From Cenococcum geophilum 1.58 (Eukaryota; Ascomycota; Dothideomycetes; Gloniales; Gloniaceae): a stretch of 64,000 bases of DNA. The position numbers and the translations under genes were made by a program. Positions 5,231 to 29,344 of this stretch are shown in pieces. Within the stretch, counting starts at the first letter, position 1; each line of letters starts with the position of its first letter. Below the pieces are notes generated by a model, which searched no databases, was not told the origin of the DNA, and worked only from the letters and a program-made list of their open reading frames with translations. Where the stretch lies: the NCBI GenBank assembly GCA_001692895.1, contig KV748273.1, forward strand, positions 1-64,000. Reading direction: 5' to 3'.

Positions 5231-5982
5231 TGCAGGCCCCCACAATACAAGACATTGCTCAAATCAAGACCAAACAAAATGCGTGAACTGCCACCGAAGC
5301 ATATATAAGGCGTAGGAGAGAGAAGACTGCATTAAATACAGGAGACGGAAGGCAAGGGCTTAACAGCTGCGGGAATAACTACACGCTAGGTTATACAAAT
5401 GAAAACAATAGGCGATAAGCTAGGGGGACGCAGGCGCCTTCCTAGCGTTTCCTACCTTTAATACTAGAGGGCTAGGCCAGCCATCCTAAGCCTTAACGGG
5501 CCAGAAGCGACGCCGTACAACATCACCAGACTAATTAGGGATATAAGGGTCACAGGGGACACAAGGGAGAGGACGCCCCGTAGGAAGACCTCTATAGACA
5601 GCAATAGTAGGCTTAAGACTAGGACAATTACGAATTAGACTTAATGCGGTAAATATAATATTTGTAGCCGACCTATAAAGGGTATATAGCCGACTAGTAA
5701 GAATAGGGGAAGAACCGGTAATAATAACAGATTTAGATATAGAAGCGCTAATAGGAATATAAAACACGGGAATAGAAAGCTCTATATAAAATAAGTAGTA
5801 ACTAGGGTGTAGATATAAAAGATAAAAGCTCTAAATATCCTAGAGAAAGTAAAAATAGAAAAAGTAAGGAATAAAGGAGAGTTAAAGGACCCTTACCGGG
5901 GGTCCGCCACCTATCCATTATATAGTATAACTACGGCAATATAAACCACCGCCTTATAAGGCCCCTACTAGACAGTCTAGAC
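5231..5982 (+). pseudogene. LINE K, ORF1-side remnant
   Basis: This is the 5' piece of K, from the target duplication to the point where B entered. Plus-strand frames give readable stretches such as VGLRLGQLRIRLNAV and VRIGEEPVIITDLDIEALIG at about 5,600-5,760, interrupted by stops. No nucleic-acid-binding motif was recognised, so ORF1 is assigned by position only. A 78-codon minus-strand frame over 5,531-5,767 is a shadow. Confidence 0.5.
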
Positions 5983-6404
5983 TGTTACGGACGCTTTAAG
6001 TACGATGTTACAACTACTTAGAGAAGAGTCGGAAAAAGCTAGTTGGTTAATATAGGTACGGACCAGGATGGAACCTGTGGAACTATGTGACGAGGAATAG
6101 TAAGCGAGTCACATAATGGTTAAACGTGTTGGCTATATTAAATGTAAGGAACGTTATATCTAATACAGACAAGACGTACATTACATATAAGAAGGATTTC
6201 TTAGGAGTACGGTTGTGTATTTAAGGACCCTTAGTCCCTACCTAGATAGTTCCTTCCTTATAGTAATTCTTAGAATACAATTAGAGTTAATTTGTTAGGC
6301 AACCACTCTACTAGTTATTATTACGTTGTTAACTTACTTATAATACCTACACACCTAGCCCATTAATAAGTCCACCATAGTCCCTACTACAAGGCTTCGT
6401 TACA
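5983..6404 (+). repeat. 5' LTR of element B
   Basis: It runs from tgttacggacgcttt to aaggcttcgttaca, 422 bases. Its partner is 21,539-21,960. The two differ mainly by transitions, as expected from RIP rather than from slow ageing, so LTR divergence cannot date the insertion. Confidence 0.92.
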
Positions 6405-9142
6405 TAATTACTACTACAGTTACGGTTTTAATAAGTTAAATAATATGCCACTAAAAGCAGCCACTATAACGCCATTAACGGCGGCAACTACGTCAGGATT
6501 AGGTAACGACACTAGTATAGTAGACACTAACTCACAATAACCTGTAATAGTAGGACAGTTATAAATAATAGTTAATTAGTTAACGGGAGATAATGCGGTA
6601 CTTAAAAATAGGATTAATAGGATAGGAGCAGTAAAGGTTAAGTTACTATTAATTAAAAGATTCTTAGGAGAAAGATTAAAGCTTAAAGGATTTCTTATGT
6701 AAATACACTTTAAGGTTGCGTAGGAAGGAGTAAAGCTGGCAATAACTATAGATTAAGTAGCATATGTAGGATTGTTCTTATTAGGAAGAGCACTTAAATA
6801 GTTTAAGCCTTACCTTATAGAGATATAAGTAAACGGAATAATAATAACAAACTAGGAAGTACGGTTTATATTTTTAAGCTAGAATGGATTTATAGAGCGA
6901 CTTACACAGATATTTAGGGACCTGGAAGCAATAACTATAGCAGAAAAAAAGCTTTAGGACCTAATATAACGAACTTTAGCAATTAAGTATATAACATAAT
7001 TCCAAACGCTAGCTATATAACTTAAGTGGAATAATAAGGCGCTTATGGCACAGTATAAATAGGGACTTAAGGCTAAAGTCTAGGACGTAATTATTCTAAT
7101 AGAAGATGCGGATACCCTAAGGGAATTAATAAATTAAGCGATTAAGATTAATAATAGGATCTTCTAAAGGGAATAGGCTAAGAAAGGCTAGGACAGAGTT
7201 CTATAGTTATATAAGGCGTAAAGTACGCAACAACTAAAGCTAAATTAAAAACTATAGTATGGCGCAGAGCTAATAGACCTAAGTGGTACTAAAGAAACCT
7301 ATAAAAGATGGAGTAAGAAACTATAGAAACTTAGAGGTTAAGGATCTAGTAATTATAGGACTAAGGAGCATAGGCTAAACCAGGGATCGCAATAGTAGAA
7401 GACGTTTAGGCGGACTCTATAATAAAGTTAATAGTTTAGAGACGGAGCTTATATAAATTACGGAAAATAGGGTTACTTCGCAAGGGATTGTAAAGATGGT
7501 TAGAGTTACTATATAATAAAGGGAACCAGATTAGCAGTATATAACACATATATATAAAGGGACGATAGTACGCTGCGAGGAACAAAAGAATATTCAATTA
7601 GAAGTTTTGCGTTTTATTACAACAACGTATACCAAATTTATAAAGACGCCAAGTATAGTGTAAGCTATTGGCTATAAGAGCTAGAGTTAAAGGGACTTAG
7701 AGGAACTAAAGAGTTAGACAAAGAATAGGATTGACTCTATAAGCTAGATTAAGATGTTACAGTAATATATAGATAAGGATTAGTAATAATAATAATAAAG
7801 TTGGAGTACTTATTAATTAACCGCGATAAGGATAGTAAAGGAACTAACTAGGGGTATCTAAACCTTAATAACGTAACGGAAGTAGAGACTAAGACCGCTA
7901 TAGAGCAAGGTTTAGTAACGGGTATTATAATACCGTTAGATACGGTATCTATTGCTTTATAAGACGGAAGGAGTAATATCTAGAAACGATTAAGCAAGCA
8001 GACGACTGCTAGTACTAGCTTACCACTTAATAAAGGTAAAAGGCTAAAGGCTTAAGATTTTTAAGACGAGATAAGAAACGACTAAGATTCTTAAGATAAG
8101 ATAAGGTAAGCTTAAAGACTTATAACGGACAGAAACTAATAGAGTAGAGTAGTAGCTTAGTTTAAGGACATACGAATAAGCTTAGGACAAGAATTCCCAA
8201 TGGTATAAGATTCTTAAGATAAGATAAGTGAGATTTAGGACTCTTAAGATAAGATGAGGACACTAGTAAAGCCTAGTTAGACTAAGGCTAGAGCTAAGCT
8301 TAAGTTAGAAGTAAGCTTAGGATTAAAGAATCTAAGGGGTTAAGAATTTAGAGCGTAAATTAGAACACCTATAAGTAAGAGGCAAGAGGCTTCTTTATAG
8401 ATTAGAGAATCTGCAGTATAAACAGTAATTAGACTAGGAGACAGATATATAGACTTAGAGGACTTACTAGGGGAACATAGTATTTAGCCTAAAGATTAAA
8501 AAGTTAATACTAAGATTAAGAAGCACGAAGACTTTAAGGATCTACTTATAAAACGCGACGTAAAAGAAACTATAGAGGAATTTAGGGTAAGAATTACCTT
8601 ATAGCAAAAACAGAAACTAGATAAGAGATCTAGTATATTGGGACGTATAAGGGATAGAGCGCTAGTATAAAAAGTCACTAATAGGCCTAGAATAGGCATA
8701 CTAAGAGCTAAGTGGCTTACTAAACTGGAATAAGAAGAGGATCTAGGGATTCTTACTAGGTTTGAAGAACGATATACTAAAGGCTGTTATAATGTAGCGA
8801 TAAAGAGATATTTCCTTACGGATAAGCCGTATATACTTAAGCAGCTATACTAAAAGTGGTATAGGTAACGACATAATAATAAGTGGGAAGATTTCTATAT
8901 ATAGTTAGACGAAAAAGTTATCTAAGACCACCCAATTATAGAGAAGGCTATAACTTATATTAAGGGGGCCTTAATTATAATGTTAAAAGATTTAAAGGAG
9001 TAATTAGAGGACTAGAGAAGTAAAAGATAAATCTTAGTACCTACAAACGAAGTTGCAACGCTTAGATTAATACAAGAGAGGTTTAAACTCTAGGATAAAG
9101 ACAAACTAAGAGTTAACCTAAGACATTAAGTATATTATACAC
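6405..9142 (+). mobile_element. Element B, gag region (fossil)
   Basis: The plus-strand reading is gag-like, with a CCHC zinc knuckle at about 7,446-7,490. Four imperfect copies of a gattcttaagataagat-type unit at 8,060-8,260 would encode an acidic Asp-Ser-x-Asp-Glu repeat. The region ends where element C entered after tacac at 9,138-9,142. It is broken many times. Confidence 0.75.
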
Positions 9143-9567
9143 TGTAACGGAACCTTGTAGCAAGAACTACGGTAGGCTCGTTATTGGGCTAGGTGTATAG
9201 GAAATGCAAGTATAAAAGTCAACAATGTAATAATAACTGGTGGAGTAGTTGCCTAACAGATTAACTCCAATTATATTCTGAGAATTACTACGAGGAAGGA
9301 ACTATCTAGGTAGGGACTAAGGGTCCTTAAATACACAACCGTACTCCTAAGAAAGTTATTACTCTATCTGCTCTATCTACTCTATTCGCTCTATAATAGA
9401 TCTTATAGATTATATAGATTATACAGATTATATCACGTAACTCTACTTACTATTCCTTATTATATAGTTCTATAGGTTCTATCCTAGACCGTGCTTATAT
9501 TAACTAACTAGCTTCTTCCGACTTCTCTCTAAGTAGTTATAATATTATACTTAAAGCGTCCATAATA
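9143..9567 (-). repeat. LTR of element C, left (3' LTR on its strand)
   Basis: On the plus strand it runs from tgtaacggaaccttgtag to ttaaagcgtccataata, followed by a pyrimidine tract (ctatttccctcc) that is the polypurine tract on the element's strand. Confidence 0.9.
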
Positions 9568-12500
9568 CTATTTCCCTCCTCTCTATCTTCGTCCTTAAAA
9601 ATACCTAGCATCTCTAGGTCGTTTATTAGAGGTGTAATATCCATTTAATTAATTTGGTTAATATTGTTACTTATAATGCCTAAAGTACCTTCTTCTTCTT
9701 CTATAGCCCGTCGGTCTCGTACCGTTGCTATAATATTATCTCTTGGCGAGATAATGCCTTCTCCGTGTTCTTGTTATGTGAAAGAGGGGCTAGTTTACGT
9801 TGTGTTGGCGAGTCCTTTATCCTAGTAACCTTCCTCTTATTTAGAGTGCACTAAAGCGAATATTTAGTTATCCTGTAACGTTCGCTCTATCTCTAATATT
9901 AAATATACGCGACCTATTACTCTTAATAGTCGTCTAGTTCCCTAATTAATTTGTCTTAGGGTCTTATATTTAATCTAAGGTAGAAAAACTTAAGGGTAAT
10001 CTTGCCGTAGCGCTAGTAGAAGCCTATCGTTAATCTAAAGAATCTGCTCGTGCCCTTAAGGCTTAGCAGTCTACCTTTATAAAAGTTTAGTATCTTTAAC
10101 GTGTTTATAAGAAGGTTCGCTTTAAGGAGTAGAAACTTATAGAGTAAGGTCTGTAGGAACTAGGTAATAAAAAAACGGATTCTCTTTTAATAGAGAAGGA
10201 AATAGATCCGAGTAGTTCGGCAACTGCTCTTCTTAGGTCCCCCTTAGGTAACTTATTCTTTGGCGATCCTTTTTTATTAATACTACCTAACCTAATCTCT
10301 TCTAATACTCCTATACCTTTTCTATAGCGTTTTTTAAATTCTTTAGTAGCTCCTAGGTAGTCTTAGTATAGCCTATCTACTTAACCTTATACCATATTTC
10401 GTCGTTAATGTCCTTATAATTAACAATCTTTAATACTTGCCATTTATCTTCTTCTTATCCTCTATATATGTCTGCTTTATAGACCGGTAGCTTAATATTC
10501 CTATATGCTAGCTCTAGTATTATAATATGNTGTATAGGGTAGATCTTTATTTTAGCTGGTAGGTTTAACTTAAATATAACTGGTGAAATCCTCTACGTAA
10601 TTTTAAAAGGTCCTAGTCTAATATGGTCCAACTTCTTGCTTAGTTATTAACTCTTAAAATTTTTATATAGTAGCTATACTTTATCTCCCTCCTTAAGATC
10701 TGGTCCCTTAGATCTCTTAGCATTATAGTACTTTTTTATTTTCTCTTATACTTTTTTTACTAATTCTATAAGGTCTGCATAAAGATTTATTAATGTCTTT
10801 ATTCTCTCTTTAGCTATACTACTCGTTTTCTTTACTTGCCGTAGTAACAACGATATTTTCGGCTTATATCCGTAATTTGCCTTAAATAGTAATATGCCTA
10901 TTCCCTCTTAAGGTGTTGTATTATATACAAACTATATAACTGGTAACAGTAATACCTAATTATTCTATGCATAATTAATATAATGCCTTAGGTACTGCTT
11001 TAGCGTCTAATTTAATTTTTCCGTTTAACCGTCTGTCTGTGGATAATATACGGTGGAAGTTACTACTTAAACTCCTTACTCTGCTAAGAATACTTCCTAG
11101 AATACTGCTATAAATCTTAGATCTCTATCCGATATAATCTTACTTAGTACTCTATATCTTACAAATACTTCTTTAACGTAGATTCTAGCGATATCTTCCG
11201 CTAAGATTTCTTCTATATATGCTATAAAGTATCCCCACTTTATAAGCTTATCTACTATTACTAAAATCACGTTATAATCTTGTCCAGTAATGGGATTTTT
11301 TAATTTTGGCAACTTAATAATAAAGTCTTATAATATGACCTCCTATAGTCTCTCTAGTATTTTAACAGGTTATAGCCCTCTATATGGCTTATACCTTATT
11401 AGTTTATTTCTTTAGCAATCTAGATATTCCTTTATAACCCTTCTAGCTATCCTTTAGATTCCATTAATAATATACTCCTCCTAGAGTCTTAATACTAAGC
11501 CCATAGCTCCATTATATCCTTAGGTTAGTCCCTTATGGAAGTCCTTTATAAACTGCTCTGCTATGCTTCTTAGGATATACTTTACTTCTCGATTTTCGTA
11601 TATATCTATCTATAGATCTTCTAGCTATGCTTTTAGAATTTTTTGTGCCTAAAAGCTTTCTAGTGTCTTATAGACTTTCTCTAGTTTGTTATCTTCTTAA
11701 GTTACTACAATTTTTAGATGATTGTACCTAATTAATCCATCTATATCTTTTCGCAATAAAGCCCCTAATGGCTTTTCCTTATTTTATAGTTTAGCTTTAC
11801 GGCTTAGAGCATCTGCCTGCGTATTATCTGTACCTTTAGTATACTAAATCTTAAAATGGTATTCCGTAAGCATCTCTGCCCATCTAACCTATCTTTAGTT
11901 AAGTTCCTTTATTATTAAAAATCCTATTAGGTTCTTATAATCCGTCTTAACTATAAATAGTTTCTTTGTGCTTTACAAGAATGCTCTCTATTCCTTTAAT
12001 ACTATAACTATACCTAACAACTCCTTGTTATAGATGTTATAGTTTAACTCCGGTAGTATTATCTTCCAACTATAGTATGCTACTAGGTGCTATCTATCTT
12101 AATGCCTTTATATAAAGCATGCCCCTAGTATATAGTCTAATATATCCGTTTCTATAACCGTCTCTAGTCCTAGTTAATAGATCTTAAGAACTGGCTCCTG
12201 GGTAAATAACTCTTTAACTTTTTTAAAGAGTTCTCTTTACTCCTCTCCCCATACCTATAGTTCTTCTTTCTTTATTAACCGCGTAAATAGCTTAATATTC
12301 TTTAACTACTGCGCTATAAACCTTCTACAGTAATTATAAAACCCTAGAAACGATCTTAACTATATAACGTTCTCTAGTTTTTACTAATTNACTATAGCCT
12401 TAATCTTTTTTAGATCTATACTAAGTTAGCCTAATTTAATAATAAATCTAACGAAATTGGTCTTCCTAGTAAAGAACTCGCATTTCTTAATTNCTACTAG

Positions 12501-15500
12501 CATCTATTCTTCTTGTAGTCTCTTTAAGACCTATTTAATATGTTCCCTATATTCTTCCTTAGTTATTAAGTAGATAATAATATTATTAAGATATACCATA
12601 ATAAATTTATCTAAGTGTTCCCCTAATACGTTGTTAATACACTTTTAGAACATTGCTAGTGCGTTTATAAGCCCGAATTGTATAACTAATGGTTTATATA
12701 GTCCTTCCTTTAACCTAAAGGCTGCCTTCTATTCGTTGCCTTCCTTAATCCTAATCTAATGGTACGCCTATCTTAGATCTATCTTTATAAAGATTTGCGC
12801 ATTACCTATCCTGTTTTAAATTTCGCTAATTAAGGGTAAAGGATACCTATCCTTCCTAGTAATGCTGTTTAACTATCTGTAGTTAATATACAGCCTTAGT
12901 TTACCATTTTTCTTTAGTATAAATAGTACTGGATAACCCGCTAATAACTGCGATGGTCTAATATATCCCTTTTATAGATTTTCCTAGATAAACTCTTTTA
13001 ACGCTCTACCTTCTTTTTCGGTAAGCTTATAGATTAGAAAGAACTTTAGACTTATTCCTAGTTCTAACTCTATCTTATAGTCCTATGCTATATACTTTAA
13101 TAGCTTTTTACTTTCCAGTGACTATAGTTTCTTGCCGTACTTATGGTATCTCTTTGGTATATAACTTAGTCCTTTTTCTATTTCTTTATAGGTTACTCCT
13201 ACTTAGTACCATACCAACTTAGCTTATTATTATATCTTATAGCGTTGAGTATCTTTAATATTAACCTGACCTATAATCTAATCGATTCTTAGATTGTATT
13301 CCTATAACTAAGGTATACCTAATACTGCCTCGTCCCGTCCTAATGGTAGGATATCAAAAGATATCTTAATTTGTCTCCCTTTAATAGTTATCTAAATAGG
13401 TCCTATTTTAAGATTGATAATCCCTCCTTTATAGGTTATTAGATCTCCTAAAATTATAACTAATAGGTAAGGTTGCTCCTTTTGTCTGTAAGGTAGTCCC
13501 ATTCTCTTAACTACTACTAGTAAGATATAGTTTCGCGTTACTCCACTATCTATTAGCGTTTTAAACTGCTGATCTTACTAATTGATTTATAAATTCAGGT
13601 ATTGTCCTTAAATTCCTTTAAGGGTCTAAGGCTCTACCACTGGCTCCCTCTGGTCCTGTAGGCCTTTACTTTTTCTAACTATTAGCTATTTAATCCTAGT
13701 GCACTTGGCTTACTCTTTAGCCAATACCTAGTTCGCTTTTTATCTTTAATATACTATAGATACGTGTTTTCTGGGCATTCCCACTACTATTGTCTATCTA
13801 AGCATTCTTCCGTAAGGAATCTTCCTGGTTAAAGTACTAAACTTCCTTCCTTTTGGACCTCTGCTGGATGCTATCCGTATATATATTTGGCATTCCTATA
13901 CTATTGCTTGTCCGTTATCTAGTATATCCTTATAGGGTATTTCCAATTCTTTTCCTTTGGATTCTTATATATTTCGCATATATTGTCCACGCACGCAATT
14001 TATAATAACATGTGGTGTGCTAGGTGCTTTAGGTTAACTCTTAGCTTATCTTCGTCCTTAAGTTTAAACCTTTATTATACTGATCTAAACGTTGCGACTT
14101 TATTTATAGGTATTAAGATACGTCTCTTACTTCTCTAGTCCTCTAAATGTTCCTCTAGATCCTTTAATATTATAATTAAGGCTCCTTTAATATATGTTAT
14201 AGCCTTCTCTATAATTAGGTGGTCCTAGATAACTTTTTTATTCAACTATATGTAGAAATTTTCCCACTTATTATTGTGCCTTTGCCTATACTACTTTTAG
14301 TACAGCTGCTGGAGTGTATACAGTTTGTCTATAAGGAAGTATCTTCTTATTGCTGCATTGTAATAGCCCTTTGTGTGTCGTTCCTCGAACCTAGTTAAAA
14401 TCCCTAGATCCTCTTTATCTTCTAGTTTAGTAAGCCACTTAGCTCTTAGTGTACCTGCTCTTAGCCTATTAGTAATTTTTTGTACTGGTGCTCTGTCCTT
14501 TGTACGTCCTAATGTGCTAGATCTTCTGTCTAGTTTCTGCTCTTGCTATGAGGTAATTCTTGCCCTAAACTCCTCTATGGTTTCTTTTACGTCGCGTCTT
14601 ATAAGTGGATCCTTAAAGTCTTTATACTTCTTAATCTTGGTATTAACTTTTTAATCTTTAGGCTAAACACTATATTCCCTTAGTAAGTCTTCTGGGTTTA
14701 TATATCTGTCTCCCAGTCTAATCGCTGTTTGTGTTATAGATTCTCTAATCTATAAAGAAGCTCCTTGCCTCTTATCTGTGGGTGTCCTAATTTATACTCC
14801 GAATTCTTAACCTCTTAGATTCTTTAATCTTAAGCTTGCTTCTAACTTAAGCTTAGCTCCTGCCTTAGTCTAACTAGGCTTACTTAGTGTTCTCATCTCG
14901 TCTTAAGAGTCTTAAATCTCACTTATCTCGTCTTGAGAATCTTATACCTGTGGGAACTTCTATCCCAAGCTTATTTGTATAGTTCTGAACTAAGCTACTG
15001 CTCTGCTCTATCGGTTATCGTCCGTTGTAGGTCCTTAAGCTTACCTTATCTCGTCCTAAGAATCTTGGTTATCTTTTATCTCATCTTAAGAATCTTAAGC
15101 CTTTGGCTTTTTGCCTTTATTAAGTGCCGAAGTGGTTCGCTATCCTACTTCTCTTACGTCTTATAAAGCAATAGACATCGTATCTAGTAGGGTTTCGATC
15201 CCTACTAATGTTCCCTATTCTATAGTGGAATCATCCTCTGCCTCTAGTATAATATTTCCGAGGTCTGCTCGCTTCTAGTAAGCGGCCCTTGTTACCTTAT
15301 CGTCACGGAATGTTTCGCCTAGGTCGAATTTATCGTCCTTAATGTCCGATCTGCGAACTAGTTCATTAGTTCCTCTGTATCCTATAGGTGCTAGCTCTTA
15401 TAGCTAATAGCTTACGCCGTACTTAGCNTCCTTATAAATTTGGCATGCGTTATTATAACAAAACGCAAAACTTCTAATTAAACATTCTTTTGTTCCTCGC

Positions 15501-16668
15501 AGCATATTATCATCCCTCTATACGTATATATTGTCTGCTAGTCTTATACCCTTTACTACGTGGTGACTCTACCCACTTTTATAGTCTCTAACGTAATAAC
15601 CCTATTTTCTACAATTTATATAAGCTCCTTCTTTAAACCATTTCTCTTGTTATAGAGTCCGCCTAAATGTCTTCTGCTATTAAGATCCCTAATTCGGCCT
15701 CTGCTCCTTAGACTTTTAATTACTTAATCCTTGTCCTCTAGGTTTCTATAGTTTGCTCTATCTCTTATAGGCTTTTTTGGTACCACTTAGGTCTATTAGC
15801 TCTGCGCTATACTATGTTTTCTAACTTAGCTTTTATTGTTGCGTAATTTACGCCTTATATGACTATAGAACTCTATCCTGGCCTCTCTTAGCCTGTTCCC
15901 TTTGGTAGATCCGATTGTTAATCTTAATCGCCTAATCTATTAGATCCCTTAGGGTGTCCATATCTTCTATTAGGATAATCGCGTCCTAGACTTTAGCCTT
16001 AAGTCCCTATTTATACTATGCCATAAGCGCCCTATTATTCTACTCTACTTATATTACTAGTGTCTAAAACTATATCGTATACTTAATTACTAAAGTTCGT
16101 TATATAAGGTTCTGGAGTTTTCTTTCTACTATAGTTATTTTTTCTAGGTCTCTAAATATCTACGTTAGTCGTTCTGTAAATCCTTCCTAACTTAAGAACA
16201 TAAATCGCACGTCTTAGTTAGTGGTCGTTATTCCGTTTACCTATATCTCCGTAAGGTAAGGTTTAAACTACTTAAGTGCTTTCCCTAATAAGAATAGTCC
16301 TGCATAGGCTATCCGATCCATAGGTGTAGGTAACTTTACTTTCTCTTATAAGACCTTAAAATGCATCTGCGTAAGGAATCCTTTAAGCTTTAACCTCTCT
16401 CCGGTAAATCTCTTAATTAATAATAGCTTAATCTTTGCTGCTCCTATTCTATTAAGTCTTTCTTCTAACACTGTATTGTTAGCTGTTAGCTAGTTAACTA
16501 TTTCCTATAGCTGTCCGACCGTTATAGGTTGCTGTAAGTTAGTATCTGCCATACTGGTATCACCTCCTATCCTTAAAGTAGTTGCTGCCGTCGATGGCGT
16601 CGTGGTGGCTACTTTTAGTGGCATGTTATTCGACTTCTTATATTAATACCGTAACTAGGTAGTAATTG
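9568..16668 (-). mobile_element. Element C, internal region with integrase core (fossil)
   Basis: The integrase core is the best-preserved stretch (11,097-11,312, minus strand), reading through the part that ends DRDLRF. The gag half (about 13,600-16,620) repeats the acidic Asp-Ser-x-Asp-Glu series at 14,890-15,095. The chromodomain near 10,400 is readable. Several ambiguous bases occur (10,530, 12,390, 12,493, 15,428). It is broken many times. Confidence 0.85.
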
Positions 16669-17093
16669 TATAATGGAACCTTGTAGTAAGAACTACAGTA
16701 GGCTCGTTATTAGGCTAGGTGTGTAAGAAATGTAAGTATAAAAGTTAACAATGTAATAATAACTGGTGGAGTGGTTGCCTAACAGATTAACTCTAATTGT
16801 ATTCTAAGAATTACTACGAGGAAGGAACTATCTAGGTAGGGACTAAGGGTCCTTAAATACACAACCGTACTCCTAAGAAAGTTATTACTTTATCTGCTCT
16901 GTCTGCTCTATTCGCTCTGTAATAGATCTTACAGATTATATAGATTATACAGATTACATCACGTGACTCTGCTTACCATTCCTCGTCATATGGTTCCACG
17001 GGTTCCATCCTAGACCGTGCTTATATTAACCAACTAGCTTCTTCCGACTCCTCTCTAAGTAGTCGTAACATTGTACTTAAAGCGTCCGTAACA
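16669..17093 (-). repeat. LTR of element C, right (5' LTR on its strand)
   Basis: On the plus strand it runs from tataatggaaccttg to aagcgtccgtaaca, 425 bases, followed by the target duplication tacac and the continuation of element B. Confidence 0.9.
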
Positions 17094-20000
17094 TACACTA
17101 TTATGGATAGTATGCGTAGATAATGCGTATAATATATATAGAGCACTAAAGAATAAAAATCAAAAGTATCTAATAAGGATGTATTAGATGACGGATAAGG
17201 CGAAATATTAAAACGCTAAGTATATATATAGTTAGCACCTAGTAAAAGTTTAAAAATAAGGGGACTTAATACTTTAACTAGGAAAATTCCTTACGGAAGA
17301 ATGCCTAGATAAACGATAATGGTGGGAATATCTAAAGAATACCTATCTATAGTATATTAAAGATAAAAAGCAAACTAAGTATTAGCCTAAGTTGGACTAA
17401 GTATAAATAGGATCTAGTAGCTAATAGTTGGGAAAAGTAGAGGCCTATAGGACTAGAGGGAGCTAGTAGTAAAGCCTTAGACCCTTAAAGGAATTTAAGG
17501 ATAACACCTAAATTTATAAATTAAGTGGTAAGATTAATAGTTTAAGGCATTAATAGATAGTGGAGCAATAAGGAACTATATCTTGCCGGTAGCAGTAAAA
17601 AGAATAGGATTACTATACAAAAAAAAGGAATGTCCTTACCTATTAGTGATAATTTTAGGAGATCCAATAGCCTATAGAGGAGGTATTATTAATCTTAAAA
17701 TAGGACCAGTTTAGTTAACCATTAAAGGAAGACTAGTTAAGATATCTTTTAACATATTACTATTAGGGAATAATAAGGCAGTACTAAGAATGCCTTAGTT
17801 ATAAGAATATAATCTAAAGATTAATTAGGTTACAGGTTAGGTCAATATTAAAAATACTTAACGCCGTAAGATATAATAATAAGCCAAGTTGGTATAGTAC
17901 TAAGTAGAAGCGACCTATAAAGAAATAGAAAAAGGGTTAAGTTATATACCAAAAAGATACTATAAGTATGGTAAAAAACTATAGTCACCTAAGAGTGAAA
18001 AGCTATTAAAGTATATAGCATAGGACTATAAGATAGAATTAAAACTAGAAATAAGTTTAAGGTTCTTTCTAATCTATAAGCTTACTAAAGAAGAAGGTAG
18101 AGTATTAAAAGAGTTTATCTAAGAAAACTTATAAAAGGGATATATTAGACCATTATAGTTATTAGCAGGATATCTAGTACTATTTATACTAAAAAAGAAT
18201 AGTAAATTAAGGCTATATATTAACTATAGACAGTTAAATAGCATTACTAGAAAGGATAGGTATCCTTTACCCTTAATTAGCGAAATCTAAGATAGGATAG
18301 GTAATGCGCAAATCTTTACAAAGATAGATTTAAGATAGGCGTACTATTAGATTAGAATTAAGGAAGGCAACAAATGGAAGGCAGCCTTTAGGTTAAAGAA
18401 AGGACTGTATAAACCATTAGTTATACAATTTGGGCTTATAAACGCACTAGTAACGTTCCAAAAGCATATTAACAATATATTAAAAGAATATTTAGATAAA
18501 TTTGTTATAGTATACCTTAATAATATTTTTATCTACTTAATAAATAAGGAAGAGTATAGAGAATACGTTAAATAGGTTTTAAAGAGACTATAAGAAGAGT
18601 AAATGCTAGTAGCAATTAAGAAATACGAGTTCTTTACTAGAAAGACCGATTTTGTTAGATTTATTATTAAACTAGGCCAACTTAGTATAGATTTAAAGAA
18701 GATTAAGGCTATAGTAAATTAGCAGGAACTAGAGAACGTTACGTAGTTAAAATTATTTTTAGGGTTTTGCAATTACTGCAGAAGGTTTATAGCGTAATAG
18801 TTAAAGGATATTAAACTATTTATACAATTAACGAAGAAAGAGGAACTATAGGTATAGGGAGAGAAGTAATAAGAACTCTTTAGAAAAGTTAAAAAGTTGT
18901 TTACCTAGGAGCTAGTTCTTAAAATCTATTAACTAGGACTAGAGACGGTTATAGAAACAAATATATTAAACTTTGCACTAGGAGTATACTTTATATAAAA
19001 GCATCTAGACGGATAGTATCTAGTGGCATATTATAGTTAAAAGATAACACCACTAGAGTTAAACTATAACATCTATAATAAGGAGTTATTAGGTATAGTT
19101 GCAGTATTAAAGAAATAAAGAGTATTCTTATAAGGTATAAAAAAACCATTTATAGTTAAAACGGATTATAAGAACCTAATAGGATTCTTAATAATAAAGG
19201 AACTTAACTAGAGATAGGTTAGATAGGCAAAAATACTTACAGAATACTATTTTAAAATTTAGTATATTAAGGGTATAGATAATACGCGGGCTAATATATT
19301 AAGTTAAAAGGCTAAACTATAAAGTGACAATAAGCTATTAGGGGCTTTACTGCAAAAAGATATAGATGGATTAATTAGGTATAATTATCCAAAAATCGCA
19401 GCAACATAAGAGAATAAGTTAGGAAAGGTCTATAAGATACCAGAAAGCTTTTAGGTATAAAGGATTCTAGAAGCACAACTAAAAGACTTATAGTCGGATA
19501 TATACAAAAATCAAGAAGTAAAGTATATCCTAAAAAGTATAGCAGAGTAGTTTATAGAGGACTTCTATAAGGGATTAACTTAAGGACATAACGGAGCAAT
19601 AGGCTTAGTATTAAGACTCTAAGAGGAGTATATTATTAACGGAATCTAAAGAATAGCTAGAAGGGTTACTAAAGAGTATCTAGATTGTTAAAGAAATAAA
19701 CTAATAAGGTATAAGCTATATGGAGGGCTACAACCTATTAAAATACTAGAAAGACTATGGGAGGTTATATTATAGGACTTTATTATTAAGTTGCTAAAAT
19801 TAAGAAACCCTATTACCGGACAAGATTATAATGTAATCTTAGTAATAGTAAACAAGCTTACAAAGTAGGGATACTTTATAGCCTATATGGAAGAAATCTT
19901 AGTAGAAGATATCACTAGAATCTATATTAAAGAAGTATTCGCAAGACATAGAGCACTAAGTAAAATTATATTAGATAGAGATCTAAGATTTATAGCAGCA

Positions 20001-21538
20001 TTTTAGGAGGTATTCTTGGCGGAATAAGGAGTTTGAGTAGCAACTTCTACCGCATATTATCCACAGACAGACGGTTAAACGGAAAGATTAAACTAGACAC
20101 TAGAGTAGTATCTAAGGCACTATATTAATCACGTACAGAATAATTAGGTATTACTATTACTAGTTATATAGTTTATATACAATGCAACACCATAAGAAGG
20201 AATGGGTATGTTACTATTTAAGGCGAATTATGGATATAAGCTAAGAACATTATTATCGCTACGTTAAGTAAAGAAAATAAGTAGTAAAGCTAAGTAAAGA
20301 ATAGAAACTTTAATAAATCTTTATATAAACCTTACGGAAATAGCTAAAACAGTATAGTAAAGAATAAAAAAGTACTATAATGCTAAGAGATCTAAGGGAC
20401 CAGATCTTAAGGAGGGAGATAAAGTATAGCTACTATATAAAAATTTTAAGCGTTGACGACTAAGTAAGAAGTTGGACTATGTTAGATTAGGACCTTTCGA
20501 AATTATATAGAGGATTTTATTAGTTATATTTAAGTTAAACCTACTAGCCAAAATGAAGATCTACCCTATATAGTATATCGTAATACTAGAGCCAGTATAT
20601 GGGAATATTAAGTTACTAACCTACGAAGCAGACACGTATAGAGGACAAGAAGAAGACAAATAGCAAGTTTTAAAGATCGTTAGTTATAAGAACATAGACG
20701 GTAAAATATAGTACGAAGTAAAGTAGATAGGCTACAACAAGACTACCTAGAAACCACTAGAGAATTTAAAGAACGCTATAGGAAAGGTATAGGAGTATCG
20801 GAAGAAAATAGGTTAGGCAATATTAATAAGGAAGAATCGCTAAAAAATAAGTTACCTAAGAGGGACCTAGGAAGAGCAACTGCCGAACTACTTAAAGTTA
20901 TTCCCCCCACTATAGGAGGAGAGTTAGTTCTCTTATTACCTAGTTCCTAAAGACCTTATTAAATAAGCTTTTACTCCTTTAAACGAACTTTCTTACGGAT
21001 ATATTCTAAACGCTAAAAACGAGTATAAGCCAGACACTAAGCTTTAAGGACATATGCGGACTCTTTTAAGGCACGCTAAACCTTAAGCAGCGTAGAGGCT
21101 AGTTTACTATTAAGCTTTATAGCGGTAGATTAAACACAAAACCCTATAACAAATTACTTAAGGAACTTAAAAACTATTAAGAGTAATAGGACGCGTATAT
21201 TTAGCATTAGATATAGAACGAACATTATAAGATAAACGTATGTTAGCGCGAGTGTATTTAGAATAGGAGGAAGGTTAGTAACTAGAAGGACTCGCAATTA
21301 TAACGCAACTTAACCCCTCTTCTGCACAATAAGAGCAAGGAATCGCTATTACTTTACCTAGCGATAGTATCAAGGAAACGGTACGAAGGCGACGCTCAAC
21401 TCAAGAGAGAGAAGAAATTGCTTTAGGTATAATAAGCAATAATATTAACTAAATTAATTAGACGGACATTATACCTCTAGTAAACGACCTAGAGATAATA
21501 GGTATCTTTAAGGACGAAGATAAAGAGGAGGAAGATGG
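17094..21538 (+). mobile_element. Element B, protease to chromodomain and 3' region (fossil)
   Basis: After C the element resumes. An aspartic protease motif (DSGA) lies at about 17,555, RT at about 18,090-18,560, RNase H at about 18,950-19,330, integrase at about 19,400-20,500 and a chromodomain at about 20,640-20,790. About 0.75 kb of weakly coding 3' region precedes the 3' LTR. The order is typical of fungal chromoviruses. It is broken many times. Confidence 0.85.
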
Positions 21539-21960
21539 TGTTACGGACGCTTTAAGTATAATGTTACAACTACTTAGAGAAGAGTTAAAAGAAGCTAGTT
21601 GGTTAATATAGGCACGGACCAGGATGGAACCCGTGGAACTATATAATGAGGAATAGTAAGCGAGTTATATAATAGTTAAACGTGTTAGCTGTGTTAAATG
21701 TAAGGAACGTCACGTCTAATATAGATAAGACGTACATTATGTATAAGAAGGATTTCTTAGAAGTACGGTTGTGTATTTAAGGACCCTTAGTCCCTACCTA
21801 GATAGTTCCTTCCTTGTAGTAATTCTCAGAATACAATTAAAGTTAATCTATTAGGCAACCACTCCACCAGTTGTTATTACGTTGTTAACTTACTTGCAAT
21901 ACCTACATACCTAGCCTATTAATAAGTCTACCGTAGTCCCTACTATAAGGCTTCGTTATA
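21539..21960 (+). repeat. 3' LTR of element B
   Basis: It runs from tgttacggacgcttt to cttcgttata, 422 bases, followed by the target duplication tagac. LINE K resumes directly after it. Confidence 0.92.
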
Positions 21961-21965
21961 TAGAC

Positions 21966-24900
21966 CTAGAGAAATACTATATCCTTACTATACAAGAACC
22001 GTATTATAATACCTTCATATAATTAATATACTGCCCCTAAGGATTCTAGCTCCTATATAAACTAAAAGCAGCCATATATATGTGCTTTATAATTAGCAAG
22101 GCTATTAGCCTATCCTTATAGTTATAATAGGCAGTTAACCTAAATATTATAGTTATAATAATCTAAACATATAGGGGACTGGTACAAATTATTAATATAT
22201 ATAACCCTAGGGTTAAAGGGGTCCTATAAATAGAGAATATTATATTAGTAATAAGCTTACTAGAAACTAAAGGTATAGAGTTTATCCTACTAGAAGATAT
22301 AAACCTCTACTACCCGTAGTAGGGGGGTATCTATATTACTATAGATTAACAGTTAGAGTGCCTACTAAGAGCTATAAATATCTAGGGCCTTAAGCTAGCT
22401 ACCCCCTAGGAGCAATTATATAGCAATGAGGTACCGCTAAAAGTATAATTAACCTTATATTTATGGACGAAGGCCTATACTAGAGACTTAAAAGGTATAA
22501 CCCTAAAGAAGAATAGGCACTTACCTTAGACTATATCCCTATTTAAATATAGCTAGACCTAGATACTAAAGCGTAACTAAATAGAAAAAGATACGCAATA
22601 AGGAAGCTTAAGATAGATAGTTTCCTTAATGCAGTTAAATAATAACTCTAAGACCTAAAAGAAATCTACCTAATACTAAACAAGCGAGGCTTATTGGCCA
22701 CCCCTAAGGAAATTAACCGAAGACTAGAAAGGATCTAGGCAGCGATTAAAAATAGGCTAAAAGAGCACTGCCCGATCTTAAAACTGGGCCCCTACGCGCG
22801 ATATATATAGTCTATATAATACGCAGTTCTAGTTGCTAGCTAATAATAAGTAAGAAGGAAATATATAAGTAGCTATAACCCTAAAGACAAGAGACGATAT
22901 AAAGACATAAGAAACTAGCTAAAGAATACCCTAAAAAAAGAAGTAAGGAATAACTGGAGACGGTTTATAAATAAGCATACTTTTAACCTAAGCCTCCCCT
23001 ATAATAAGGGCCTTTAGGCTATAGTAAAATGGGTAAAGAAAAAGGCAGGGCGCCTAGCAGAAGACCTATACCTACCACCCCTATAAAGAGTAGGAGAATT
23101 ATAGGCTATAAATAACAATAATAAGAAGGCAAAGATCCTTATAGAAAGGTTCTTCCCCTAACTAGCTTTAGCAGACCTTAGTAATATTACAGGCGAAATA
23201 CCAGTGACTTGCCTATGGGTTAATAGCGATATAATAATAGAGGAAATAGCTAGAACTATTAGCCGCCTTTTAAATAATATAGTACTAGGACCAGATAGGA
23301 TTCTAAATAAGGCCCTAAAAACCTGTGGGCTACTTATAGCACCTTAGCTTACAGATGTAGCCAGAGCATACTTTGCTATAGGCTACTACCTATAACTTAG
23401 AAGATCTATAATGATGGTTGTCCTATAAAAAGAAGGTAAAGCAGATTACTTAATCCCAGGAAGCTACCGCCCTATTACCTTAGAAAATACCCTTAGTAAG
23501 ATCTTAGAAAGGGTAATAGCGGAATATATAGTAGACATGGTAGAGGAATACGCCCTACTACTATAAAGCTAAATAGGGGCAAGAAAGAACCGCTTAATAC
23601 TATTAGCATTTACGCTACTCGCTACCACCATTAAATCTGCATAGGCGATGCGAAAGGGCTTTATAGTATTAATGCTTAGCCTAGATATTAGTGGTACCTA
23701 CAATAATATACCCCACAAGCGTCTCCTATATATCCTTAGGGTAAAGGGCTTCTTAGAATGGATTATATAATTTATCTAAGGGTTTATAGGCTAGAAAGAA
23801 ATATTACTGGTCTTTAGCGGATACCAGAGCCCCCTTATCGCAGTTATAACAGGAATACTATAAAAATTACCCCTCTTGCTTATACTTTTCCTTTTCTTTA
23901 TAAGCAACCTACTTAACTTCTTTAAGGAAGGGGCGACCTAGGGGATAGGTTTTATTAATAATACAAACCTAATTATATACGGGCTAATAGCCGTAGAGAA
24001 TTACAGAATACTAGAGAAAGCCTATAATACTTATATAGAATAGGCAAAACGTTATAGAGTCTAATTCTTACTAGAGAAATACCAGCTAATCCATTTTATA
24101 AGAAAACGTAACTAATCTGTAGATCTCTAATATATAATTCGCATTTAAGGCTTTAAGGGTTAACCAGTTTAGGGCCTAAGGGTATTAGGAGTATAGGTAG
24201 ATAGTAAGCTCCGGTAGAGCGCATATATAGCATAAGTAGCCTATAAAGGCCAAGCACAGTTTATCGCTTTATCTAGGATTATTAATTTTATATGGGGTCT
24301 ATACTTCTAGAGGTTACGCCTACTATATATAGCAGTTATCCGGCCAACTATGATATATAAATCCAGTATTTAGGCCATTAGAGAAACTAAAAAGGGCCCC
24401 CCTAAATTACTCCTTAAACCACTTTAAAAGGTCTAAATAGCCTACCTTTAGAGTATTATAGGTGGGTACAAGCGAACGGCTACAGTACTACTTAAGAAGG
24501 AATCTAATATTCCCCCCCTATAGTTATATATTAAAGCCGCTATAATATAAAGGACGTAAAATAAACGCAACTCTAATATTATAAAGTATATTAAGACACG
24601 CCTAAGTAAACTATAGAGGGACCCTAGGGTGCCCTATAGGAGAACAAACCAACAACCCTAAAATAGGGAAGAGATATTAGAGAAACAGGTAAAGAAAGTA
24701 GAAGAAGAATAGTACCGCTTTAGGGCCCAGGCCTATATAGAGGAGGAAGGGAGACGTATAAGAGGTTAATAAAGACAACAGTAAGATAGAGAAAGGAGCT
24801 AAAGTAGAATATATAAGAACGCCAGGAAACCATCTACTATAATATAATACTGGTTAGACTAACGCTAGAGAGGTAAATAGGAGTTAAAGGTATAGAGGCT

Positions 24901-25591
24901 AACTTAAGTAAGATAAACCTAAGCTATAGTATAGTTAATACTATAGGGGGTAAATACTTAAGGGCTCCAAGAAGGCCTAATAAAGGTAAAAAACATAATA
25001 GTAACACTCTTAAGAACAGGAATAATAGAACTAAAAGATTGGCTTTACTGGGTGGGTATCCTAATAGGTAGCCTAAGATGTAAATATGGCTAGCTAAGAC
25101 AGACACTAAAACACATAATACTGCTATGCCCCCTATATACTAATTAAAAAATAATACTTTTAGTAGCTAGCATAGAGAACTATAATACACTGCTCTTAAT
25201 ATAAAAAGGCCTTAAGGCGGTTACCTAGTGGCTTATTAGTTAAAATATGCTAAATTAGTTTTAGGTTGTAAGGGAAATGGTAATAAAAGGCAAGGGGGCG
25301 AGCAGTAGGTGCCCCCTAGTAACTCTACAGTAGTAGAGTAATAGTTTATAATACTAGCGCGTCCATAGGCTTATTACGGCAGTAGTGGTTCCTAAAGAGG
25401 TTAAACAGTAAGGTAGTAAAGCACTATAGGCAACTCGTAGGCGCTAAGTAGGCGAGTCCCAAAAGGCGGGGAGATGGATTATGGGGTTTTCTTATTTTTC
25501 TTAAATAGAGTTTTCTCCCCATATGTAAATAAGGAGTAGTCCGCGTGGGCCCAATAGGGATCCAAATCGGACGTTAAGCAATGAATTATTA
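21966..25591 (+). pseudogene. LINE K, endonuclease-RT ORF2 remnant and 3' tail
   Basis: The reading starts in an APE-type endonuclease (ILTIQEP near 21,985; LLEDINLYYP near 22,290). The reverse transcriptase follows at about 23,440-24,400, with LDISGTYNNIPHKRLL at about 23,680-23,727 as the Tad1-style block before the active site. The usual F-x-D-D active site reads INN at about 23,945, consistent with G-to-A changes. A Cys-His motif CKYG...H...C follows at about 25,080-25,133. Many stops occur, mostly TAG/TAA from CAG/CAA or TGG codons, so the ORF is dead. The family copies itself by target-primed reverse transcription. The 59-base 3' tail (25,533-25,591) is shared with element L. Confidence 0.85.
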
Positions 25592-25605
25592 TAATAATCT
25601 TATAA

Positions 25606-27320: not shown

Positions 27321-27975
27321 CGTTTTAACTATAAATAGTTTTTTTATGCCTTATAAGAATGCTCTTTATTCCTTTAGTACTGCGATTATACCTAGTAACT
27401 CCTTATTATAGATATTATAGTTTAGCTCTAGTAGTGTTATCTTCTAACTATAATATACTACTAGGTACTATCTATTTTAATATTTCTATATAAAGCATAC
27501 CCCTAGTATATAGTCTAATATATCTATCTCTACAACTATCTCTAGTCCTAGTTAATAGATCTTAAGAACTAGCTCCTAGGTAAATATATCTTTAACCTTT
27601 TTAAATAATTCTTACTGCTCCTTTCCCTATACCCATAGTTCTTCTTTCTTCGTTAATCGCGTAAATAGCTTAATATCCTTTAACTATTGCGCTATAAACC
27701 TTCTACAGTAATTACAAAACCCTAGAAATAATCTCAATTGCGTAACATTCTCCGGCTCTTACCAATTTACTATAGCCTTAATCTTTTTTAGATCTATACT
27801 AAGTTAGCCTAGTTTAATAATAAATCTAATAAAATCGGTCTTCCTAGTAAAGAATTTGTATTTCTTAATCGCTACTAGTATTTATTCTTTTTATAGTCTC
27901 TATTACAGAGTGAGTATAAGCGGCGATAATATATAGCAAGGTAGATATTATTAAGCTATGTATATAAACTATATA

Positions 27976-28061
27976 GGCCGTCGAAAACGGACTCTACACC
28001 TGTACGTGGTGACGGCTACGAACCTGGGTCTTTGAAGTTCAGACCCAGAGCCAACGCAGAG
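27976..28061 (+). ncRNA. HDV-like self-cleaving ribozyme at the 5' end of L
   Basis: The stretch fits the nested double pseudoknot of HDV-like ribozymes. P1 pairs ggccgtc (27,976-27,982) with gacggct (28,011-28,017), seven pairs with the G-U wobble at the cleavage end. P2 pairs ctctac (27,992-27,997) with gcagag (28,056-28,061), with one A-C mismatch that a TpG-to-TpA change would explain. P3 is acc/ggt around a 7-base loop (28,001-28,007). P1.1 can form between cgt in that loop and acg at 28,018-28,020. P4 is ctgggtc/gacccag (28,024-28,030 and 28,042-28,048). The J4/2 stretch reads c-c-a-a-c right before P2, matching the C-N-A-A-N pattern that holds the catalytic cytosine. Cleavage would fall exactly at the first base of L. 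Confidence 0.82.
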
Positions 28062-28997
28062 ACGTCGCACAGCGTGCGATACGACATGGTGGTGGTGGTT
28101 GCGAGTAGTGTGGGCAGTNGTGAAAAGTTTTCACATGGGATGGTGAGATCTCGAAAACCACCACCGTTGGTACCCCCTTACGATAGCAGCTACTATACTA
28201 CTATTCTCCTATCAGGAGGCACCTGTACAATCTAGCATAGATGCACAGCATTCGAAAGCATCCCCTGACCCCCAATAGAAAGCATTAACGACCTCTTATA
28301 TTGACGAACGAGCGAATGCGAACAAGTAACGAGCAACAAGCAAATATACGGCCCCTCCTAACCCCCAGGGCGATCGCCCGCGGAGCATGCGGTCACTCGC
28401 CGTTAGCAAGTACCAAATACCCAGCAGCCTGGATTGCGACCCACGGTTTTCCTTGTCTCCTTTCAACGGAGTAGTGACCCTTAGAAAGGGCCTAGCTGGG
28501 GCCTAGGCATAAAAGATACCTAATACAATATATCCCGCTGTTAGTATTACGGTAATTAGAACGGATGAATCCCCCTTATGCCTTCGATAGGCCCTAGGGG
28601 GGGGGAGGCATGGCGTATATAACAATGGTTAAATAAGAGATAGTATATAGGGGATGGCTAAGATATGGGAAACAATAGTAAGATACAGCAATTAAGTGGC
28701 AAGGCCTAGCTGGGACGTAGTAAACCCTAGCTTGGATAAGCTAGAGAAGGAAGTAGTAGTTCCCAAGGAGTTCGAACATCTAAGGAGGATAGGACGTAGC
28801 TATAGGCCCATAGGGCCGCTGCTACGTGCGGATATGGTAAACGGGGTTTTTTATCCTACTAAGGTGGCTCATAGGGTTTTTCCTCCCCCCCAGCAGCAAG
28901 AGTTTTTTCCCATTAATATTACTTTTCCCTTATGTACGGAGTAGTCTGCGTGGGGCTAGATAGCATCCGTATCAGACGTTAATTAAAGAAGAATTAT
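27976..28997 (+). mobile_element. Element L: short non-autonomous LINE-type retroelement
   Basis: L is 1,022 bases, inserted in the left LTR of E with a 15-base target duplication (27,961-27,975 and 28,998-29,012, one G/A difference). Its first 86 bases form an HDV-like ribozyme. Its last 60 bases (28,938-28,997) match the 3' tail of LINE K. Between them I see no endonuclease or RT. Further stems follow the ribozyme: tcgcac/gtgcga at 28,065-28,079, and ggtggtggtt/aaccaccacc at 28,091-28,165. Base composition is near normal and RIP slight, so it is young or low-copy. A GTG-started 82-codon frame at 28,696-28,944 resembles nothing known. Best reading: a SINE-like derivative that uses a Tad1-like LINE's enzymes; an internally deleted LINE is the alternative. 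Confidence 0.8.
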
Positions 28998-29344
28998 TAT
29001 ATAAACTGTATAAGGAGGTTAAGACGTTGCGTAAGGAAAGAAGGTAGGAAAACGGGAAGAAAGGGTATATATCTTTAACTTAGTTGCTTAGTTAATACGT
29101 ATATAGGGCAGAATAGGGTTTAGGTTATAGTCCTAATAGAACTTAGCAGAATTCGGTAAAACTTGGCAGAATATAGTAGAATGCTATAGATTACCGTTAG
29201 ATTGCTATTAGATTGCCGTTAAATTGCTATTTTACGGTTAGTCTTTAATTGCTAAGTTGGTAGAAATAGGTAAACGTATATAAGGTGTTACAAGGGTGTT
29301 CCGTAATAGTACCCCCCCTTTAAACTTAAGCTTCTGCGAGATAG

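Follow-up and report, generated by a model that had tools for sequence, protein, structure and literature searches.

What fixes the 5′ end of a short non-autonomous retroelement? The question arises in the window (the whole 64-kb stretch of DNA analysed here), where an element of ~1.02 kb that we call L (27976..28998, plus strand; longest open reading frame 82 amino acids; delimited by its target-site duplication) starts with a sequence that an earlier note had read as an HDV-like ribozyme. We found that the HDV-like fold at 27976..28061 on the plus strand, with a predicted cut immediately 5′ of 27976, is real despite one A-C mismatch in P2, and our analysis supports the earlier note's interpretation of what the thing is, where it lies and what its probable job would be. 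One ambiguous base (N) lies inside the element, at 28119.

The fold and the 5′ boundary of L

All parts of the nested double pseudoknot (P1, P2, P3, P1.1 and P4) are present in the window copy in the right order and spacing, as direct reading and recovery by a descriptor both bear out. P1 joins GGCCGUC (27976..27982) to GACGGCU (28011..28017) in seven pairs, the first of which is the terminal G-U that had been described, and P2 joins CUCUAC (27992..27997) to GCAGAG (28056..28061) with the single mismatch A27996-C28057; the 3′ strands of both stems are placed by the descriptor and the alignment of L copies. P3 (27998..28010, ACC/GGU, placed by the descriptor) closes a seven-base loop, L3, of UGUACGU (28001-28007), whose GU at 28002-28003 pairs with AC at 28018..28019 in the P1.1 that had been put forward as possible, which we located by comparison with Rfam alignments. 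P4 (28024..28048; descriptor and L alignment) has eight pairs, 28024-28031 with 28041-28048, not the seven claimed earlier. Ahead of the 3′ strand of P2, J4/2 reads CCAAC (28051..28055; descriptor), which conforms to C-N-R-A and to the C-N-A-A-N noted before; its first C, C28051, occupies the place of the HDV catalytic cytosine. The form CUCUGC/GCAGAG, in which P2 is fully paired, occurs in 22 of the 30 L copies examined, in agreement with the proposal that the mismatch is a later base change. The window copy, which is among the L copies with a broken P2, has since undergone a G>A change there, and its predicted cleavage is probably poor.

The element is flanked by a 15-bp target-site duplication (27961..27975 and 28998..29012; TATATAAACTATATA/TATATAAACTGTATA) that is 14/15 identical, has one T in common with the element end at its 3′ copy and stops immediately 5′ of 27976, such that the first base of P1 is, as had been claimed, the first base after the duplication. 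We searched the genome (177 Mb, 162 contigs) for other copies. A pattern of the first 32 bases of the L head, with C/T and G/A tolerance at seven places, occurred 170 times, and the reversed 32-base control pattern 0 times. Among 40 scored matches (of 846 candidates), L started at base 1 in 36, base 2 in 3 and base 3 in 1, a distribution from which the frequency of truncated copies cannot be read because the scoring favours full-length copies; full-length copies starting elsewhere, which the earlier note had named as evidence against its reading, were thus not seen beyond base 3 in this set. The end of the duplication coincided exactly with the first base of P1 at 20 of 30 L loci and was displaced by +1 base at 5, −1 at 3, +2 at 1 and −3 at 1, placing it within one base of the P1 start in 28/30 copies (L004 and L005 lack their first one or two bases; for these two the alignment was used to place the boundary). 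Duplications were at least 13 bp long in 28/30 copies, the others measuring 11 bp (L009) and 9 bp (L015). The copies sit at many different, mostly AT-rich sites, with upstream flanks that differ between copies. The tails of the same 30 copies fall into at least four groups behind the same 5′ head: AAGAAGAATTATT(ATT)n, AAGAATTATTATT(ATT)n, AAGAATCTACTACTA and AAGAGTTACTACTA.

How far such a fold could arise by chance was assessed with a descriptor comprising a 7-bp P1, 6-bp P2, 3-bp P3, 7-base L3, P1.1, a P4 of at least 5 pairs and CNRA. Over both strands of the window, it gave 0 matches without a mismatch and, with one P2 mismatch allowed, a sole match at 27976-28061; another copy of L (L017) matches without any mismatch. 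In 10 Mb of first-order Markov sequence, the strict descriptor matched at 1 start with element-like composition and 9 with window-like composition, and the version with one P2 mismatch at 10 and 52, respectively. About 0.7 relaxed matches are therefore expected by chance in both window strands, and a single one somewhere in the window is unremarkable. A relaxed match at one base fixed beforehand is not: its Markov-based chance is ~1e-6 to 5e-6, which answers the earlier call for a comparison with random sequence. Since even the strict descriptor would match tens to hundreds of times genome-wide by chance, the weight of the evidence lies in the position fixed by the duplication.

Covariance models add little to this. 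No Rfam family reached its gathering score anywhere in the window, and within 27800-28400 the one match with E up to 5 was to the F. prausnitzii ribozyme model (RF02682; 16.5 bits, E 1.7, cut-off 44 bits), spanning exactly 27976-28061. L017 scored 14.6 bits with this model and 12.6 with drz-agam-1 (cut-off 37). L reached no family cut-off and every Rfam match to the heads described here is sub-threshold, which we do not take as excluding the HDV-like class because the Rfam families of this class are narrow. Sub-threshold matches also occur in 14 control genomes (RF02682 in 8/14, RF01787 in 11/14, RF01788 in 3/14 and RF00094 in 4/14), so that such a match alone proves nothing, and the families L, M and N rest on their boundaries. 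A search of the genome with the RF00094 model led nowhere, as did a plasmid search.

Pairing is well kept among L copies, with 96.0% of cells paired (26 pairs, 27 distinct rows) vs. 29.5-42.3% when the strands are slid by 1-3 columns. Covariation within L was 0.065, not above shuffles (mean 0.059; 74/500 as high), and the paired changes in P1, P2 and P4 that the earlier note had looked to were dropped as support. Pairs were broken at P2 pair 5 in 5 of the 27 distinct rows, at P1.1 pair 1 in 8 and at P4 pair 3 in 10, while P1 pair 7 had changed from C-G to U-G in 4 rows and was broken in 1. Over 90 columns the copies differ from the majority base 88 times, of which 81 are C>T or G>A and 48 of those lie in CpA or TpG, which is the pattern of RIP, a fungal mutation process. 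One-sided changes in P1 and P2, which had been named as a sign against the fold, do occur; because 81/88 differences are C>T or G>A we read them as decay after insertion and do not count them against it. Such decay means that covariation within L tells little, and C>T/G>A decay can itself produce paired changes, by acting on CpA in one arm and on TpG in the opposite one.

Sister families and the partner LINE

Two further families of the same plan were found through sub-threshold Rfam matches in the genome. Six of the 7 matches to the drz-agam-1 model belong to an element of ~0.95 kb, M, with perfect duplications (6/6; 13-19 bp) that end right before GGGCUC, that is, before base 1 of P1. M has a P1 of GGGCUC/GAGCCC with a mismatched pair 7 (G-G, A-G or A-A; by eye A-C in L087, whose row was left out of the descriptor tabulation), a P1.1 of CC/GG and a P4 of CUGGCAG/CUACCAG with one mismatch, usually C-A, in most copies. 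P2 and P3 are the same as in L, and these two stems are therefore not independent support in that family. None of 14 M heads matched the strict descriptor, and 12/14 matched at the expected base once a single mismatch was allowed in each of P1 and P2 and P4 was waived; C-N-R-A in J4/2 is altered in two copies (L038 and L097). Among 40 scored matches (of 1826 candidates, including the query), M started at base 1 in 31, base 2 in 1, base 11 in 6, base 49 in 1 and base 95 in 1.

The drz-agam-2-2 model (RF01788) gave 6 sub-threshold matches, and the strongest of these, in L079 at 28.1 bits and E 0.0015, pointed to family N, with P1 GCCCGCG/CGCGGGU, P1.1 CC/GG, P2 CUGCAC/GUGCAG, P3 GCG/CGC, L3 UCCACGU and J4/2 CUAA. 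N heads matched the descriptor at the expected base in 6/13 cases under strict settings, 7/13 when P1 and P2 were each allowed one mismatch, and 10/13 with P4 waived. Of 40 scored N matches (of 461 candidates, including the query), 14 started at P1 base 1 and the rest at most 47 bases upstream, none inside. P1 is thus re-paired across the families (GGCCGUC/GACGGCU in L, GGGCUC/GAGCCC in M, GCCCGCG/CGCGGGU in N), as is P1.1 (GU/AC vs. CC/GG), and it is these re-paired stems in M and N, not covariation within L, that lend the fold its comparative support.

Outside these families, the F. prausnitzii model found a complete HDV-like fold (28.9 bits, E 0.156, below the cut-off) on the minus strand of a GC-rich, gene-like region (L031:1576-1502; C81:661519-661594). 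It matches the strict descriptor, with P1 CCUGCCC/GGGCGGG, P2 GGGUCG/CGACCC, P3 GCC/GGC, P1.1 CC/GG and a P4 of 7, and no second copy was found for the 601-base stretch around it. This may be a host-gene ribozyme, and given the genome-wide chance rate we treat it only as a good candidate. One RF01787 match (L032) was set aside, no HDV-like parts being seen by eye. Three matches of one repeat to RF01788/drz-agam-2-2 (L080, L081 and L082; E 0.02 to 5, below the cut-off) had no descriptor match; the best of them, L080 at E 0.02, outranks the L031 match, and because the descriptor also misses L079, in which P3 is mismatched, this miss is not an exclusion.

An autonomous LINE with the same 3′ end as L and M is present in the genome. 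The LINE-like last 64 bases of L, which include its ATT-rich tail (28935..28998, plus strand), align over 65 columns at 78.5% identity with the 3′ end of a LINE copy on contig C101, and alignment scores to the LINE 3′ end were 75 for L and 73 for M, compared with best scores of 26 and 32 among 500 base shuffles, none of which (0/500) reached the score of either element. The C101 copy encodes APE and RT domains (Exo_endo_phos_2, RVT_1) and an ORF1 with CCHC-like motifs by eye and no Pfam match, and is flanked by a perfect 16-bp duplication (L070:2414-2429, L071:308-323). A decayed copy of this LINE, from APE to the 3′ end, lies on the plus strand of the window at 21961..25596 (matches to L048, L067, L070, L071 and L083) and ends 2.4 kb upstream of L; its 5′ continuation is at 5231..5982, also on the plus strand, where matches to L070 and L083 break off to resume at 21961 with a 5-base overlap. 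The ~16 kb between (5983-21960) form an insert that splits the copy, with the 5-base overlap at the break that an LTR-element insertion would leave. Eight LINE copies (of 40 scored; 818 candidates) agree on a start at or near GGAGCTCTTGCTGC, and the descriptor with one mismatch in P1 and P2 found no HDV-like fold at these 5′ ends. The LINE start is not sharp, the C101 copy having 35 further bases before its duplication, 13 of which are also in L075. A different LINE (L069), which ends in poly(A) and in which we found no fold, was rejected as the partner.

The N head (~1.77 kb) ends at one fixed 3′ point, beyond which copies differ. Of 6 copies examined downstream, 4 join the LINE in the same sense at four different points: at its start after ~40 nt (C17), within ORF1 (C6), upstream of the RT domain (C2) and in its last ~0.4 kb only (C11). 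Perfect duplications enclose the stretch between P1 base 1 of N and the partner's end at C6 (15 bp), C11 (14 bp) and C68 (13 bp). In the C68 copy, the head is followed, within its duplication, by 337 nt (L108:247-583) that match none of the LINE pieces compared and finish in an ATAC repeat; a host transcript may be the partner in this chimera. The C69 copy showed no match to the LINE within 1 kb, and no duplication was found for it. Between the N head and the LINE start at C17 lies an inverted piece of the LINE 3′ region (L106:165-204; 35/37 bases match), which we take to resemble the 5′ inversions of LINE twin priming. We considered whether the C6 copy is a LINE with its own 5′ ribozyme, as one duplication encloses both, but other N copies join the LINE elsewhere or not within 1 kb, and for this reason we regard the N head as an RNA in its own right.

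What sets the 5′ end

We judge it probable that L is a SINE-like element copied by a LINE, and that an HDV-like ribozyme determines where the element begins. L would be a non-autonomous retroelement copied by the APE-RT LINE of the same genome, with its RNA probably made as a segment of longer, read-through transcripts. The ribozyme would cut just 5′ of P1, releasing an RNA that starts at L base 1; the 3′ end, by imitating that of the LINE, would let the LINE reverse transcriptase start there, and the enzyme would then use the cleaved RNA as its template as far as the 5′ end left by the ribozyme, which we propose as the reason that L copies begin at P1. RNA cleavage itself we infer from the fold and its position. 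At least three LINE-copied families have an HDV-like head that the LINE itself seems to lack, and their boundaries suggest that such an RNA sets the start of the L, M and N jumping elements.

A different origin of the heads, which we consider unlikely, would be a LINE subfamily with its own ribozyme, as in L1Tc, with the sampled LINE copies having lost it. The 3′ ends that L, M and the LINE have in common fit this, as does the C6 duplication that encloses an N ribozyme together with a long LINE part, but the eight LINE 5′ ends have a different start in common and show no such fold, and four copies of the N head join the LINE at differing points while the other two show no junction with it within 1 kb. 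It is also possible, though we hold it quite unlikely, that the ribozyme is or was active and that the element's own promoter makes the 5′ end, the fold serving another step, for instance second-strand joining or handover of the reverse transcriptase to a different template. The element's 5′ end would be at P1 in any case, N heads are the 5′ parts of LINE chimeras, and R2 insertion is reported to be affected by structure at the 5′ end of the RNA (PMC11331408). Arguing against a promoter of its own, ARAGORN found 0 tRNA genes in 27900-29100, neither it nor Rfam across the window revealed a tRNA- or 5S-derived SINE head, no other promoter-bearing Rfam RNA was found in the element, and the upstream flanks differ between copies. 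Finally, an accidental likeness that arose in a single repeat and spread as that repeat was copied is very improbable. The ~0.7 relaxed matches expected in the window and the Rfam scores far below cut-off would allow it, but the duplication fixes the base at which the fold starts, and the fold recurs, with other P1 sequences, at the boundaries of M and N.

Comparison with known systems

The ribozyme-headed plan favoured here for L has a close counterpart in trypanosomatids, where, as described in the available part of PMC4035085, L1Tc/ingi LINEs and their short relatives NARTc, RIME and SIDER have 5′ HDV-like ribozymes. The latter three resemble L in being short, non-autonomous, LINE-moved and headed by such a ribozyme; the difference is that in L1Tc/ingi the autonomous LINE has the same ribozyme, whereas the 8 sampled copies of the partner LINE here are without it. 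In R2 and its internally deleted derivatives, the cut of an HDV-like ribozyme is likewise the exact 5′ end, and the short R2 forms retain the 5′ ribozyme and the 3′ end (PMC3414825 and PMC3774820, as far as available to us). R2 is specific to 28S, whereas L occupies many sites and its LINE has an APE endonuclease. Like SINEs of the Mg-SINE type (PMC2104539, available part), L imitates the 3′ end of a partner LINE; it differs in starting with an HDV-like fold, and searches for a tRNA head found none.

The HDV class itself has been described from fungi, with 230 examples in 26 species, Penicillium and Aspergillus among the hosts, and Li and Breaker (2017) showed that two fungal variants cleave at the P1 base (PMC5640933, accessible text). 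L resembles these variants as a member of the HDV class in Pezizomycotina, and differs from them in three features, by which L does not group with them: the pair at the cleavage site is G-U in L and C-G in the variants, P4 is plain in L and has an E loop in the variants, and the variants have an extra base between P2 and P3 that L lacks. The accessible text of that paper links the fungal variants to no retrotransposon, the string 'retrotranspos' being absent from it. Among the best-listed, mostly open-access literature, judged by titles and the beginnings of abstracts, we recognised no fungal retroelement with an HDV-like ribozyme; no literature was found on Trichoderma and HDV-like ribozymes, and a search on Cenococcum and ribozymes led nowhere. 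The earlier supposition that such a case was undescribed in Pezizomycotina holds to the extent that none was recognised on a fungal retroelement; it does not hold for the class, already published from Penicillium and Aspergillus (PMC5640933, in the text available), nor for short elements with 5′ ribozymes, known in trypanosomatids (PMC4035085, likewise in part). HDV ribozymes in fungi are known, as are non-autonomous elements of other organisms that have an HDV-like ribozyme at the 5′ end; what appears new is the combination. It offers a concrete job for fungal HDV-like ribozymes, that of setting the 5′ ends of LINE-copied elements. As the ribozyme seems to belong to the parasite and not, unlike in L1Tc and R2, to the helper LINE, 5′ processing could be studied apart from LINE biology.

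For the N chimeras, the closest likeness is to MINE of Magnaporthe, in which a 1.1-kb RNA, WEIRD, heads variably truncated copies of the MGL LINE, with template switching as the explanation (PMC2104539, in the part seen). N chimeras have the same plan, in which a complete non-coding 5′ part, fixed at its 3′ end, is joined to variable points of a LINE and duplications are present, with 4/6 copies joined to the LINE and duplications at C6 and C11; we set the inverted 37-nt LINE piece at C17 apart as a difference from MINE chimeras. The likeness is one of plan, drawn from the published description of WEIRD; no ribozyme is reported for WEIRD in the available part of PMC2104539, and none is mentioned in the literature that we found on WEIRD and MGL of Magnaporthe. 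Tentatively, and as a conjecture that we regard as more doubtful than probable, filamentous fungi may carry a class of self-processing non-coding RNA parasites, defined by an HDV-like head absent from the helper LINE, whose ribozyme-made 5′ end makes them the complete 5′ parts of template-switch chimeras, and to which WEIRD and many of the fungal ribozymes of Li and Breaker would belong. With the L, M and N heads described, an old puzzle becomes testable, namely whether WEIRD, the RNA at the head of the MINE chimeras of Magnaporthe, starts with a ribozyme.
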